Positions 45,644-51,415 of a stretch of DNA of 64,000 nucleotides are shown one piece after another. The notes under the pieces are model-generated. The model made no database searches, had not been told where the DNA came from, and was given only the letters and a program-made list of their open reading frames with translations. The stretch lies in assembly GCF_036013915.1 (NCBI RefSeq), contig NZ_CP107899.1, positions 5,084,001 through 5,148,000 on the forward strand. The letters run 5' to 3'. Origin of the DNA: Streptomyces sp. NBC_00464 (lineage in GTDB: Bacteria > Actinomycetota > Actinomycetes > Streptomycetales > Streptomycetaceae). The first letter of the stretch is position 1. Each line of letters starts with the position of its first letter. The position numbers were made by a program, and so were the translations under genes.

Positions 45644-48604
45644 TCAGGAGCCGGCGGCCTCCCTTGCCGACACGGTGACCCGCGCCACCCGCATCGGGTG
45701 CCCGGCCTCGGTCGCGGGGCCCGCGGTGGCACCGTCCGCCGAAGGCAGCCCGCCGCCCATCGCCACGTTCAGGATCAGGAACTGGCCCCGCTTCAGCGCC
45801 CGGTCCCAGGTGGCCGCGTCCATGGCGGACGCCTTCACCCGGTGGTACACCCGGCCGTCCAGATACCAGCGCAGCTCCTCCGCGCCGGGCGCGGTGTCGA
45901 GCTCCACGGCGTACGAGTGGAACGCGCCGCGGCAGCCGGAGCACTTCTGCCGGGGCGAGGTGAGCCCCATCGGCTCCTTGCAGGGCCCGCCGTCCGCCGT
46001 GCCGCAGTGCAGGGTGCCGAAGACGGCGTCCCGGCCGTTGACCGACTCCATGACGTCGATCTCGCCGATGGCCGGCCAGCCCGTGTAGCCGTCGCGCAGC
46101 CCGGCCCCCAGGGTCCAGAAGGCCGGCCAGTAGCCGCCCGCCTTCGCGCCCGTGACCTCCGGCAGGGCGATCGACGCCTCGATCCGCAGGACGCCACCGG
46201 GCGGCGGTGCGAAGTCGGAGCGCCGGGACTCGATGCGGCCCGAGTACCACGTGCCCCCGCGGCGCGTGGGCACGATCTCCAGGGCCCCCTTGCCGTCCAG
46301 CCGGACGTTGTCCGTCGAGTCCGTCATCGTCTCGATCTCCCCGGTGCCCCACTGCGGGGCCGGGCAGCCCGGGTAGCAGGTGCCGCGGTCGTACAGCCAG
46401 CGGGAGGCGGCGGGCCGGCTGCCCGCCGGGCCGTCGAAGTCCTCGCGCAGCAGCTCGGTCCAGCCGTGCGCGGCCGGTGCGCCGGTGCTCATGAGCAGCC
46501 GTTCGAGCCGGGGGGCCAGCACCACGGCCGCCACATCGGTCAGATGGGCGTCGTCCCGGTAGAGCAGGATCCGGTCCAGGACCGCCGGGCAGGTCGGGCC
46601 CGTGGCCGGGCACAGCACCGCGTTCACCTGCACGTTCCGTACGCCCGGGAGCCCGCCGGCCGCGACCTTCTCCGCCAGCGGATCGGGCCACCGGGCCGTG
46701 TCCCGGTCGAAGGCGCAGGTCTCCGGGTCCGTGAGATGGCCCGAGACGCACGCGGGGATGTCCGTACCCGGCACCGGGGTGTCCTCGATGTGGACGATCG
46801 GCACCCCGAGCGCCCGCAGCGGCTTCAGCGTCCGCTCCCAGCCCCTGAGCAGCAGGCGCTGGTCGTCGGTGTAGCGGTTGAGCGAGGAGATCACGATCAT
46901 GCGGGGCTTCGGGCCCTTCGCCAGCCGCGCCAGGCTGTCGGCCCGCCAGGTGTCGCACTCGTGGTACGTACGCCCCAACTGCGGGTTCACCACGGACAGT
47001 TCCGGCAGCGGGCAGCCCTGCTTCACCAGCTCCTGAAGGGCCCAGCCGCGCTTCGCCGCCAGGCTGAGCACCGGGGAGAACCACTGTCCGGCGTGCGAGT
47101 CGCCGAGCAGGACGATCCGGTCGGGACTGTCCACCGCCCCGAACAGGCAGGGCGGGCTGCTGGTCACCGCCGGCGCCACCTCGCAGGCCCCGTCCGGCGG
47201 GAAGCTCTTGCGGGCCTGGACCGGACTCGGTACCACGGGGCCGTCGTTCGCCGGAGTCCTGGTCCGGGTCAGCAGCGAGGGGCCGGTAGCCGCCCCCGGC
47301 GGGAGGCCCTTCACGTCCACCGGGGCGGACGGGCCCAGCAGTTGCAGCGTCGTCGTGCCCACCACGAGTGCCAGGACCACCGGAATGACGACGGCGGCGA
47401 CGCCCAACGACAGTCCGCGCCGGGGGAGTTCGGAGAGCGTACGGCTGTGGCGCAGCGGGCGCTCGACCCAGTGCATGGTGGCCAGGGCGGGCAGCACCGA
47501 GGCCAGTGTCAGGGCTGTCCTGGCCGGCCAGTCCAGGGTGCCGAACCGGGCCTCGGCGAGGACGAGCACCGGCCAGTGCCAGAGGTACAGCGTGTAGGAG
47601 AGCCGCCCGACCGCCCGGGGGCCCCGAAGCCCCAGCAGCCGTCCCACTCCGTAGCGGGCCGGCCCGTCCGGGCGCCGGCCGGGGATTCCGGCCAGGATCA
47701 CCGCGGCCGTCGCCAGGGTCGGGACGAGCGCCGCGTATCCGGGATACGGCGTGCCGGAGTCGTACCGCAGCACGCACCACACGAGGGCCGCCGCCCCCGC
47801 CCATCCGCACACCAGCCGCAGGGCGCGCGGCCCGCGCAGCAGATGCCACGGCAGCAGCGCCAGCAGGGCGCCGACGCCGAACTGCCAGACACGCGAGGGC
47901 GTTCCGAGGTACGCCAGCGAGACGGAGTCGCCCGTCCAGTACAGCGAGAGGGCGAGAGTGGTGAGCGTCAGTACGGCGGTGGCAGCGACCGCTGCCGGCC
48001 GCAGGGCGCGTCCCCGGCGGGCAGCGCGCGCGGTGAGGAGGGCGAGGGCGGCCAGCAGCGGGGCCCAGCAGAGATAGAACTGCTCCTCCACCGCCAGCGA
48101 CCAGAAGTGCAGCAGCGGGCTCTCGCCCTGCCCGGCGGCCAGGTAGTCGGTGCGCTGCTGGACGAAACGCCAGTTGGCGACGGACAGCGCCGCCGCCACG
48201 ACGTCGTTCTCCAGGTCGGTGCGGCGCAGCGGTACGGTCAGCCAGGCCCCGGCCACCGCGACCGCGACGAGCACCACGGCGGCCGAGGGCAGCAGCCGGC
48301 GGGCCCGGCGGGAGAAGAACTCACCGAGCCGGATCCGGCCGGTGGTGACGGCCTCCCGCACCAGCAGCCCGGTGATCAGATAGCCGGAGATGACGAAGAA
48401 GACGTCCACGCCGATGAATCCGCCGGCGAGCCCCGGCACGGAAGCGTGGAAGGCGAGGACCGAGAGGACCGCGAACGCGCGCAGCCCCTCGATGTCGGGA
48501 CGGAAGGGGAGGCGGCGGGAACCCGTGGTGCCGGGACCGCCTGATGACGGGCGGGGGACGGCGCTGCCGCCGGTCCGCGGACCGGAGGGGGCGAGGGTGG
48601 GCAT
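45644..48604 (-). CDS. Acyltransferase-3 / SGNH / GH16 fusion protein
   Basis: 986 residues, three parts. (1) Acyltransferase-3 at about 33-420, some ten membrane helices, with catalytic-type His53 (AFHASV) and FFSRRARRLLPS. (2) An extracellular SGNH domain at about 490-712 with GDSH (501-504) and the partner D684/H687 in RDDAHL. (3) A GH16 domain at about 715-986 with GEIDVME (E848, D850, E853) and six Cys. Parts 1+2 are the known OafA-type O-acetyltransferase layout; a C-terminal GH16 beta-glucanase is unusual. Gene 15 bp downstream of a cellulose-synthase-like GT2, so it probably O-acetylates and trims or transfers the polymer that enzyme makes. Confidence 0.88.
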   Translation of the reverse strand: MPTLAPSGPRTGGSAVPRPSSGGPGTTGSRRLPFRPDIEGLRAFAVLSVLAFHASVPGLAGGFIGVDVFFVISGYLITGLLVREAVTTGRIRLGEFFSRRARRLLPSAAVVLVAVAVAGAWLTVPLRRTDLENDVVAAALSVANWRFVQQRTDYLAAGQGESPLLHFWSLAVEEQFYLCWAPLLAALALLTARAARRGRALRPAAVAATAVLTLTTLALSLYWTGDSVSLAYLGTPSRVWQFGVGALLALLPWHLLRGPRALRLVCGWAGAAALVWCVLRYDSGTPYPGYAALVPTLATAAVILAGIPGRRPDGPARYGVGRLLGLRGPRAVGRLSYTLYLWHWPVLVLAEARFGTLDWPARTALTLASVLPALATMHWVERPLRHSRTLSELPRRGLSLGVAAVVIPVVLALVVGTTTLQLLGPSAPVDVKGLPPGAATGPSLLTRTRTPANDGPVVPSPVQARKSFPPDGACEVAPAVTSSPPCLFGAVDSPDRIVLLGDSHAGQWFSPVLSLAAKRGWALQELVKQGCPLPELSVVNPQLGRTYHECDTWRADSLARLAKGPKPRMIVISSLNRYTDDQRLLLRGWERTLKPLRALGVPIVHIEDTPVPGTDIPACVSGHLTDPETCAFDRDTARWPDPLAEKVAAGGLPGVRNVQVNAVLCPATGPTCPAVLDRILLYRDDAHLTDVAAVVLAPRLERLLMSTGAPAAHGWTELLREDFDGPAGSRPAASRWLYDRGTCYPGCPAPQWGTGEIETMTDSTDNVRLDGKGALEIVPTRRGGTWYSGRIESRRSDFAPPPGGVLRIEASIALPEVTGAKAGGYWPAFWTLGAGLRDGYTGWPAIGEIDVMESVNGRDAVFGTLHCGTADGGPCKEPMGLTSPRQKCSGCRGAFHSYAVELDTAPGAEELRWYLDGRVYHRVKASAMDAATWDRALKRGQFLILNVAMGGGLPSADGATAGPATEAGHPMRVARVTVSAREAAGS

Positions 48605-48619
48605 CGCTACGAGGACCTT

Positions 48620-50293
48620 TCAGCTCAGCCAGGGCAGCATGGGATCGACCCAGCCGGACGCGAGCAGGGCGGTGAGCAGGAGCGTGGCCGTCACGGCCAG
48701 GGTTTCGGGCCAGCGCCTGGGCAGCACCGAGGACCGCCGGCCGCGCCGGAGCCGTTCGGGCCGCGCGGCAGCCGAGGGACGTAGACCGGTCAACAGGTCC
48801 CTGATCAGCGGGACGTTGATCTGAAGCTGCACCAACAGGTAGAGACCGAGACCCCAGTTGGGCTCCCAGCCGTTACGTGCCACCGCCAGGGCGAGACCGC
48901 CGGCCGCCGCTCCCGTGGAGCAGCAGAGCCAGCCGAGCGAGACGAGCACCACCCGGTGCGCCATCGTGCCGGGCTTCCCGCCACCGGCCCCGGTGGGCAC
49001 CCATGCCGCACTGCGGCCGCGCAGGGTGTGCAGGAAGGCGGCCCCGGCGGCCACGCTCGTCAGGACGTTGGCCCGGATCACCTCGATCCGCCAGCGGGTC
49101 CGGCTGATCCGCGGCAACAGCACATGCCAGAGCCACAGCGGCGCGAGCAGCGGCAGCACGTGCCAGGGCCGGATGTGGTCCGGGTACCAGAACATCATCA
49201 CCAGCGGCGGCAGCGGGGCCGCGAAGGTGTTCACCACCGTCGTCAGATAGCCGACGATGCCCTCGTAGAAGCAGAGCCGCATCCGCCACGGGGCGCCCAT
49301 CCGCCTGAGCACCGGGGTTCCCATCAGGTGCAGGTTGCCCATCGCCCAGCGGTACTGCTGGTTGAGATACGAGGCGAGGTTGTCCGGCGAGGTCCCCTTG
49401 GCCACCAGCACCGGCACGTAAAGGGTCCTGAAACCCTGCTCGTACAGGGCGAGTCCGGTGTACAGGTCCTCGCTGTGGTCGAGCCGGGCGAAGCCGCCGG
49501 CCAGGTCGATGGCGCTGCGCCGGTAGACGGCGTTGCTGCCGCAGCAGATGGCCGCGTCGCTCGCGTCCCGGGAGGGCTGGATCCAGCGGAAGAACCACTC
49601 CTGGGCCGATCCGGCGGCGCGCTGGATCCAGTCCATCGTCTCGTCGGTGTCGAAGCACTGCGGGCTCTGCACGATGCCTACGCCGGGGTCGGCGAGATAC
49701 GGCACGAGGTGGCGCAGGAAGTCGGCCCGGGGCGCGAAGTCGGCGTCCAGGATGGCGATGTACTCCGCGCTGCTCAGGGTGAGCGCGTGGTTGAGGTTGC
49801 CCGCCTTCTTGAGGTGCCCCCGGTCGGGTCTGACGACGTAGCGGTATCCGTACGAGGCTGCCAGGGCGGCCACTTCGGGGCTGTCGGCGTCGTCCAGCAC
49901 CCATACGGTCAGCGCACCTGGCCAGTCGAGAGCGGCGACGGCCCGGTAGGCGTTGTCCAGGACCGGAAGCGGTTCGCCGCAGGTCGGCAAGTAGAGATCC
50001 ACGGAAGGGAGTTCGGGTGGATCCCAGGCGTGTACGAGCACCTCGTGCGAGCGCCTGGTCAGCCGGCGCTGGCGCAGGCTGTTCACCGACGAGAGCGCGA
50101 GCGCGACGACGTTCAGGGAGAGCACTGCGAGAAAGGCCCACAGGGCCGGGGTGCGCAGGGCGAAGGTGAACATCGTCGCCGCGGTGAGCACGAAGGCGAG
50201 AGAGGAGCTGATCAGTACCCAGCGGCGCTGAGGCCCGAAGTACCAGTAGAGCTCCTGGTCGGACGGAGGTTGTGGCAGGTGATGCACGGTCAT
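48620..50293 (-). CDS. Processive family 2 glycosyltransferase, cellulose-synthase-like
   Basis: 557 residues from ATG 50293 (GGGGGG upstream; GTG 50305 possible). Two N-terminal helices (about 25-70), cytosolic GT-A domain with DDADS (134-138), DAD (183-185), SED with general base D276, and QQYRW (312-316) of processive synthases; then several C-terminal helices forming a translocation channel. No PilZ domain is visible. It should polymerise and export a beta-glucan-type chain from a nucleotide sugar; cellulose, beta-1,3-glucan or another polymer cannot be separated by eye. First gene of an operon with the acyltransferase-SGNH-GH16 protein. Two DasR-like sites lie upstream. Confidence 0.9.
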   Translation of the reverse strand: MTVHHLPQPPSDQELYWYFGPQRRWVLISSSLAFVLTAATMFTFALRTPALWAFLAVLSLNVVALALSSVNSLRQRRLTRRSHEVLVHAWDPPELPSVDLYLPTCGEPLPVLDNAYRAVAALDWPGALTVWVLDDADSPEVAALAASYGYRYVVRPDRGHLKKAGNLNHALTLSSAEYIAILDADFAPRADFLRHLVPYLADPGVGIVQSPQCFDTDETMDWIQRAAGSAQEWFFRWIQPSRDASDAAICCGSNAVYRRSAIDLAGGFARLDHSEDLYTGLALYEQGFRTLYVPVLVAKGTSPDNLASYLNQQYRWAMGNLHLMGTPVLRRMGAPWRMRLCFYEGIVGYLTTVVNTFAAPLPPLVMMFWYPDHIRPWHVLPLLAPLWLWHVLLPRISRTRWRIEVIRANVLTSVAAGAAFLHTLRGRSAAWVPTGAGGGKPGTMAHRVVLVSLGWLCCSTGAAAGGLALAVARNGWEPNWGLGLYLLVQLQINVPLIRDLLTGLRPSAAARPERLRRGRRSSVLPRRWPETLAVTATLLLTALLASGWVDPMLPWLS

Positions 50294-50346
50294 AAAGCCC
50301 CCCACGGCTGTGCATGTCCCGGTATCGGGGGACCTACCCTAGCGCC

Positions 50347-50635: not shown

Positions 50636-51415
50636 ATGCCGATACCCAGCCGCGCCGCCCTTGTCGACCATCTCGTCCGTACGCGCATAGCGGGAGACGT
50701 CGCGACCCCACGCGACAACAACCTCTCCCACTACCGCAAGCTCGCCAACGGCGACCGCCACTTCTGGCTGGGACTGGAGCTCGGCGACCGGTGGCGCGAC
50801 GAGCAGGACGTCCTCGCGGTCATGGCCGAGAGATGCGGGGTCAGCGACGACCCGGAGCACCGGTTCGGCCAGGACACCATTGATCCCGAGCTCACCGTCG
50901 CCGCCCTGGACCGGGCCGCGGCCCGGCTGCGGAAGGCGGCCGACGGGACGGAGCGGGTGCTCTTCGCCACCGGCCACCCGGGCGGCCTGCTGGACGTCCA
51001 CCGCCAGACCGCGGCCGCGCTGCGGACGGCCGGCTGCGAGATCGTGCGGATCCCGTCCGGGCTGACGGCGGACGAGGGCATGGTCTTCCAGTTCGCGGAC
51101 GTCGCCGTGCAGGAGCGCGGCGCGACTCTCTGGCACACCCACTCCCCGGCCCCGATGGCGGCGATCCTGGACGGCCTGGAGCGGGAGGGGCGCCCCATGC
51201 CGGACCTCGTCGTCGCCGACCACGGCTGGGCCGGGTGCGCGGCGCAGCGCGGACTGGACGCCATCGGCTACGCGGACTGCAACGACCCGGCCCTGTTCCT
51301 GGGGGAGTCCGAGGGCACCCTCCAGGTGGCCGTCCCGCTGGACGACCATGTGCTGGACCCGCGGTTCTACGACCCGATGACGGAGTACCTGCTGGACGCG
51401 GCCGGACTGCTCTGA
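50636..51415 (+). CDS. Conserved actinobacterial protein annotated as phosphatase
   Basis: 259 residues, soluble. Contains RVLFATGHPGGLLDVHRQ, ATLWHTHSPAPM and LVVADHGWAGCAA, with several His/Asp that could bind a metal. I recall orthologues labelled phosphatase in Streptomyces, but no classical phosphatase motif (DxDxT, HxGxx) is evident, so the name is tentative. ATG 50636 is preceded by weak signals. Divergent from the GT2 operon. Confidence 0.65.
   Translation: MPIPSRAALVDHLVRTRIAGDVATPRDNNLSHYRKLANGDRHFWLGLELGDRWRDEQDVLAVMAERCGVSDDPEHRFGQDTIDPELTVAALDRAAARLRKAADGTERVLFATGHPGGLLDVHRQTAAALRTAGCEIVRIPSGLTADEGMVFQFADVAVQERGATLWHTHSPAPMAAILDGLEREGRPMPDLVVADHGWAGCAAQRGLDAIGYADCNDPALFLGESEGTLQVAVPLDDHVLDPRFYDPMTEYLLDAAGLL

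Follow-up and report, generated by a model that had tools for sequence, protein, structure and literature searches.

What is made by a locus in which a polysaccharide synthase gene is followed by a single gene joining a membrane acyltransferase, an SGNH domain and a glucanase? The question is raised by a two-gene operon of Streptomyces sp. NBC_00464, found in a 64,000 nucleotide stretch of contig NZ_CP107899.1 (positions 5,084,001 to 5,148,000), hereafter the window, within which all coordinates are given. The synthase is a processive glycosyltransferase of family 2 (GT2), and the fusion protein combines an acyltransferase-3 (AT3) domain, the SGNH domain and a glycoside hydrolase of family 16 (GH16). 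The answer proposed here, with a probability of about 0.62, is that the locus represents a minimal synthase-dependent surface-polysaccharide system of Actinomycetes, in which the GT2 would extrude a chain, the AT3-SGNH part would acylate it and a surface-held GH16 would cut or re-join it. Behind this proposal stand the pairing of the two genes, their intact catalytic residues, their co-occurrence across genomes, two routes by which the GH16 is tethered, and a family 26 glycoside hydrolase (GH26) as the alternative in sister loci.

Composition of the operon

The gene for the fusion protein (45644..48604, minus strand) encodes 986 amino acids from an ATG start and was delimited by open reading frame, domain and structure-database matches; among the best 120 of 3134 relatives, full-length ones are 72-98% identical. 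Its AT3 domain spans residues 37-375 (47480..48496; PF01757, 7.6e-31), with R35, R42 and H53 at the front edge, conserved in 70 of 70 rows of an alignment which, like the others used here, was not deduplicated. Beyond it lies a strongly hydrophobic helix at about residues 397-425 (47330..47416), detected as segment 393-425 in a hydropathy scan that found no window as hydrophobic after residue 430, and modelled as a helix at 397-422 in a low-confidence stretch. This is likely an extra helix that would place the SGNH and GH16 domains outside the membrane. The structure model as a whole is of low confidence (pLDDT 63, pTM 0.42) and was used for domain matches only.

The SGNH domain follows at residues 474-701 (46502..47185; PF19040, 2.6e-25), with GDSH at 501-504 and D684/H687 present in 71 of 71 rows, and Foldseek matches it to 6se1, the periplasmic domain of a Salmonella acetyltransferase (3.2e-5). 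PF01757 followed by PF19040, with the SGNH residues intact, places the protein in the AT3-SGNH class. The remainder of the chain is the GH16 domain, at residues 710-980 (45665..46477), which matches 3dgt at 2.8e-84 and, over 708-973, 7eo3 at 3.5e-82. Its catalytic motif EIDVME at residues 848-853 (46046..46063) supplies E848, D850 and E853 of the ExDxxE pattern, found in 67 of 68 rows with one gap. Identity to endo-1,3-beta-glucanases is 48-50%, and no carbohydrate-binding module was detected in the chain by domain search. Misassignment of this domain was ruled out by the sequence matches to 3dgt and 7eo3 together with a Foldseek fold comparison (3dgt, 4.4e-20, from the low-confidence model). 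The assignment survives sequence and structure checks, though the general Pfam model PF00722 has no match on the window's chain at E 0.001; a separate GH16 homologue in another locus (L082) passes that model with 26.6 bits against a cut-off of 22. PF26113 is also present in most listed fusion relatives and most listed stand-alone GH16 proteins.

The GT2 gene (48620..50293, minus strand, from the open reading frame list) is separated from the fusion gene by 15 bp (48605..48619) and encodes 557 amino acids from an ATG. An alternative in-frame GTG at 50305 would extend this to 561 amino acids; the ATG is favoured as the predicted start by the six consecutive G that directly precede it. The protein has membrane helices at both ends and a cytoplasmic GT-A domain at about residues 95-330. 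E275-D276 and the QQYRW motif at 312-316 (49346..49360) are each identical in 68 of 70 rows, with two gaps. Both reading frames, the spacing between them and the residues named in the first-pass annotation (GDSH, D684/H687, E848/D850/E853, D276 of the GT2 and QQYRW) proved correct, and the residues are conserved in the alignments.

That annotation also described the GT2 as a cellulose-synthase-like glucan synthase. The likeness holds in so far as BcsA, the best solved match by sequence, is its nearest solved relative; it does not extend to the CelA model, against which the protein scores 177.6 bits with a cut-off of 699.1, nor to a PilZ domain, for which the domain search gave no match. The bacterial beta-glucan synthase set comprising BcsA, CrdS and BgsA is defined by D, D, D, QxxRW, KAG and QxPH/Q motifs and an FxVTxK gating loop, as outlined in PMC6821405. 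All of these but the last are present; in place of the gating-loop motif the window's GT2 has WVPTG at 431-435, and 15 aligned rows have A-W-[VE]-P-[TS]-G. Hyaluronan synthases were not retrieved by sequence as relatives. The comparison list held barley CslF6 as its sole mixed-linkage synthase and no curdlan synthase, and so excludes nothing. Two other relatives were considered as guides and set aside: a Leptolyngbya GT2 (35% over 5-440), whose neighbours are hypothetical, and a Rhizobium GT2 (38% over 89-370), which sits after an HlyD-type adaptor and belongs to a different design.

Recurrence of the gene pair

The architecture is not a peculiarity of one assembly. Comparison loci (n = 94) were drawn from a one-genome-per-species scan and from the window's genus by means of fusion peptides, a choice that selects for AT3, SGNH or GH16 and leaves GT2 unselected. 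SGNH and GH16 were both found in 67, or 62 distinct loci after removal of five duplicates. The two domains are in one frame in 55 of the 62 and not in the other seven. All 61 distinct loci that could be tested have a GT2 gene upstream in the same orientation. Each thereby joins a synthase to one or more genes for modification or transport, the combination by which PMC7112194 defines synthase-dependent exopolysaccharide systems. The single untestable locus (L072) starts at a contig edge; another from the same record set (L102, S. laculatispora) has the GT2 followed by the AT3 part. In one further locus (L085) the frame is broken between AT3 and SGNH.

Dozens of independent loci repeat both the fused frame and the gene pair, which is more than chance; the three-domain chain and its adjacency to a GT2, as first proposed, are both borne out. 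The objection that the fusion might be a rare assembly joining two genes fails on the same count of 55 of 62, and an assembly artefact is further ruled out by full-length three-domain entries among the best 120 of 3134 relatives, for some rows of which the GH16 accession was not printed. The pair is found in Streptomycetaceae, Pseudonocardiales, Streptosporangiales and Longispora. Of 199 genomes from the window's genus, 18 carry the full-length fusion, and the identical 18 carry a GT2 of at least 85% identity over the matched part. A further 16 have AT3-SGNH proteins only, at about 38-43% identity, and a further 25 have a GT2 at 39-42%. Sampling 394 genomes across the class recovered the pair in five members of the window's genus and, beyond it, in G282 and G340.

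Two ways of tethering the GH16

In seven loci from more distant Actinomycetes (L081, L082, L083, L084, L086, L087 and L096; hosts Solihabitans, Streptosporangium, Planomonospora, two Sinosporangium, Nonomuraea and Longispora), GT2, AT3-SGNH and GH16 are separate genes in that order. All seven unfused GH16 proteins begin with a signal sequence and a lipobox, and in six the gene and the preceding AT3-SGNH gene overlap by 4 bp, the seventh, in Sinosporangium album (L086), lying 98 bp downstream. The linkers of the fused proteins are short and hold no leftover lipobox. In Sinosporangium siamense, the GT2 and AT3-SGNH genes are separated by a gene of 368 amino acids on the opposite (minus) strand (L084:4637-5743), whose first residues look transposase-like.

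The fusion probably arose more than once. In a tree of concatenated GT2 and AT3-SGNH sequences (19 rows: 11 fused, 7 separate and a GH26-type outgroup, L153), the fused Actinocrispum locus groups with unfused Solihabitans (90/90) and unfused Longispora is placed among fused lineages. Forcing a single fused clade costs 65.8 log-likelihood units and is rejected (p-AU 9.3e-7), and the GT2 alone also forces two changes between the fused and unfused states. Several branches are long and the count of changes cannot separate fusion from fission; since each fission would need a regained signal and lipobox, at least two fusions are taken as likelier.

A GH16 tree of 46 rows places all fused domains and the operon's lipoprotein GH16s, together with nine database proteins of unknown context, on one side; on the other are 18 further proteins, most with binding modules or plain signals. 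The lipobox pattern is found in eight of the nine database proteins, and by eye in the ninth (P0131). A class-wide search for lipobox GH16s at 1e-60 had matches in 52 of 394 genomes and returned mostly GH16s in other settings. A search of another family, in 151 genomes at 1e-100, gave no matches and says nothing on the context of lipobox GH16s.

Sister loci with GH26

The related synthases lacking a neighbouring GH16 provide a counterpart. Sixteen such loci (L116-L125 and L153-L158) were sampled, comprising 10 of the 25 genus genomes with a GT2 at 39-42% and all six of the non-GH16 type from the class sample. A GH26 homologue lies beside the GT2 in 16 of 16, was confirmed by Pfam in six of six tested, and has a lipobox-like start in at least nine of the 16. 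A PMT-like gene is present in 12 (11 by tblastn, and L153 by Pfam), and an AT3-SGNH gene is next to the GT2 in three (L153, L156 and L158). The nearest relative with another glycosidase is L153, with a 49% identical GT2, a 53/49% identical AT3-SGNH and a GH26. Members of this GT2 family are accompanied by a surface glycosidase, and whether that is a GH16 or a GH26 may inform on the polymer. Seven of the ten genus sister loci were seen to lie just after ribosomal-protein, rpoA- and truA-like genes, judged by first residues only.

Function of the locus

Homology suggests how the parts might work together. The GT2 would polymerise a nucleotide sugar in the cytoplasm and extrude a beta-linked chain via its own membrane channel. 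The AT3 domain would carry an acyl group from acyl-CoA across the membrane to the SGNH domain, which would esterify the emerging chain, following the export and transfer mechanism summarised for AT3-SGNH proteins in PMC9558356. The GH16, held on the outer membrane face by the fusion or, elsewhere, by a lipid anchor, would cut or re-join the chain and so set its length or release. The O-acetylation initially put forward is unproven: the closest NCBIfam model is SucT (NF058601), against which the AT3-SGNH scores 207 bits, far below the cut-off of 1275. The glucan product proposed at the same time was read from the GH16 alone; since the nearest relatives of that domain are endo-1,3-beta-glucanases, beta-1,3-glucosyl linkages are most likely present in the polymer.

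Several points weigh against the proposed system. The GT2 lacks the FxVTxK motif of described bacterial beta-glucan synthases. The operon is patchy, being present in only 18 of 199 genomes of the window's genus. The AT3-SGNH tree alone does not exclude a single fused origin. Support for the GH16 clade (89/88) is not strong, and the anchor is not exclusive to it, as the lipobox pattern also occurs in three of the 18 proteins outside, two of them plausible (lipobox-like GH16s there are P0144, P0216 and, by eye, P0158). One stretch from Motilibacter (L101) has a 54% identical GH16 and neither GT2 nor AT3. Above all, the GH16 can be lost. It is absent without remnant from four Streptomyces loci (L068, L069, L071 and L075) that share one syntenic place and keep both GT2 and AT3-SGNH; in S. 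candidus (L078:6001-8526), which likewise keeps both, an in-frame deletion removes the GH16 active site and leaves the chain open. In another genome (G551, L159), a 536 amino acid SGNH-GH16 piece has no AT3 and no GT2 match at 1e-120, and is either an operon remnant or a soluble two-domain protein. Loss or gutting of the GH16 in five Streptomyces loci shows that synthesis can do without it. This suits a part in setting length or release more than one in making the polymer, and it counts as the chief evidence against an obligatory coupling.

The foremost alternative, a real though minority possibility, keeps the architecture as proposed and replaces the beta-1,3-containing glucan with a different polymer, for example a mannan, a mixed-linkage glucan or an amino-sugar polymer, that would be the target of both GH16 and GH26. 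Against it stand the 48-50% identity of the GH16 to endo-1,3-beta-glucanases, and a GT2 whose best solved match by sequence is BcsA and which did not retrieve hyaluronan synthases. It is less probable that the GH16 is a transglycosylase grafting or cross-linking the acylated chain to another surface polymer, as opposed to a trimming hydrolase. Its permanent tethering on the membrane surface would suit such a role, as would a weak similarity to the SKN1/KRE6 model of yeast glucan assembly (18.3 bits on the window's chain and 26.3 bits on the GH16 of L082, both under the cut-off of 30); its nearest solved relatives are named hydrolases, however, and no sequence feature examined separates hydrolase from transferase.

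Two further alternatives detach one of the parts from the synthase. That the GH16 serves to digest external beta-1,3-glucan from fungi or plants, and is only parked on the acyltransferase, is improbable: its nearest free relatives do include secreted glucanases with carbohydrate-binding modules, but the window's chain has no such module, all 61 testable loci, unfused ones included, have the GH16 together with the synthase, and the sister synthases have a GH26 of their own. Least credible of all is a purely positional link between the AT3-SGNH and the GT2, with the former acylating some other polymer of the envelope in the manner of mycobacterial SucT. Although SucT is the best NCBIfam match (207 bits against 1275), the GT2 and the fusion occur in the identical 18 of 199 genus genomes and remain paired across Streptomycetaceae, Pseudonocardiales, Streptosporangiales and Longispora, whereas the AT3-SGNH paralogues of about 40% identity have no GT2, GH16 or GH26 nearby in 10 of 10 stretches, in two of which (L161 and L163) the gene caller missed the AT3 gene.

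A bolder form of the proposed synthase-acylation-cutting system, offered tentatively, is that these loci make an undescribed class of acylated, beta-1,3-containing surface glucan of Actinomycetes. Each GT2 would have a dedicated surface glycosidase, with GH16 and GH26 exchanged between branches; two or more independent fusions would have coupled acylation to cutting within a single chain, and the pattern of esters would decide the sites of cutting or joining.

Comparison with described systems

The architecture is real, conserved and undescribed in the literature searched, and it extends a known logic. PgaB, for PNAG, and PelA, for Pel, are likewise single chains in which an acyl-editing domain and a glycosidase act on a GT2-made polymer past the cytoplasm (PMC9384988). 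The deacetylase of PgaB removes acetyl groups, whereas the AT3-SGNH is of the acyl-adding kind and the GH16 is of another glycosidase family; unlike the PgaB system, the fusion locus has no porin or TPR partner gene next door. The acetylated-cellulose wss operon of Pseudomonas similarly groups a BcsA-type synthase, a glycosidase and acyl-transfer genes, and only four such operons were reported in 1733 genomes surveyed (PMC7112194). In that system, acylation is by the separate proteins WssH and WssI, and export is of the diderm kind, as opposed to the one chain found here. WssH and WssI, which are related to AlgI/AlgJ-AlgX, are of the MBOAT type.

Within Streptomyces itself, the CslA-GlxA-CslZ system also has a GT2 synthase with a glucanase gene nearby (PMC11022532), but uses the copper oxidase GlxA and has no AT3-SGNH. 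The window's genome contains a separate GT2, 26-27% identical to that of the operon and followed by a 644 amino acid protein, which by size and place are probably CslA-GlxA. Two other regions of the same genome (L204, C1:4897000-4911000; L205, C1:463000-477000) have GT2 genes, 25-28% identical, each directly before an AT3 match, and are possible loci for other acylated polymers.

OafA/OafB, OatA and SucT share the AT3-SGNH domain order, the AT3 arginine and histidine and the SGNH triad, to which the fusion adds GH16 as a third domain. The available portion of a review of AT3 proteins names SGNH and alanine-racemase fusions and does not name GH16 (PMC9558356). A literature search of titles and the starts of abstracts, mostly of open papers with few subscription papers or preprints and thus weak, found no AT3-SGNH-GH16 protein. 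The GH16 endo-1,3-beta-glucanase of S. sioyaensis (3dgt) is 48% identical to the window's domain and has the intact ExDxxE motif in common; that enzyme and its kin are free and often have binding modules, whereas the domain described here is tethered to the membrane.

Surroundings of the operon

A convergent TetR-family gene of the SACE_7040 type has its end 10 bp from that of the fusion gene, and nothing suggests that it is a member of the unit. Upstream of the operon lies a divergent gene (50636-51415) with a strong match to PF15698 (Phosphatase), which no reason was found to include. A promoter and terminator scan gave no promoter-like site and one terminator-like site inside a gene, as in shuffles.

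Implications

Cutting enzymes such as BcsZ, CslZ, PgaB and AlgL recur in bacterial polymer-export operons, where what they do during synthesis is a matter of debate. The initial reading of this locus overlooked that GH16 also exists as an unfused lipoprotein, that fusion probably recurred, that sister loci have a GH26 counterpart and that some lineages have dropped GH16. That a cutting domain has repeatedly been fastened to the acylating enzyme, or is otherwise held to the membrane by another route, argues that its position at the exit of the chain has been selected. With two genes, the system is small enough to express and dissect, and the GH26 sister loci and the lineages that lost GH16, such as the S. 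parvus group, are natural comparisons. If the proposed function is right, many Streptomyces and Kitasatospora would be predicted to carry a surface polymer that has so far gone unreported.

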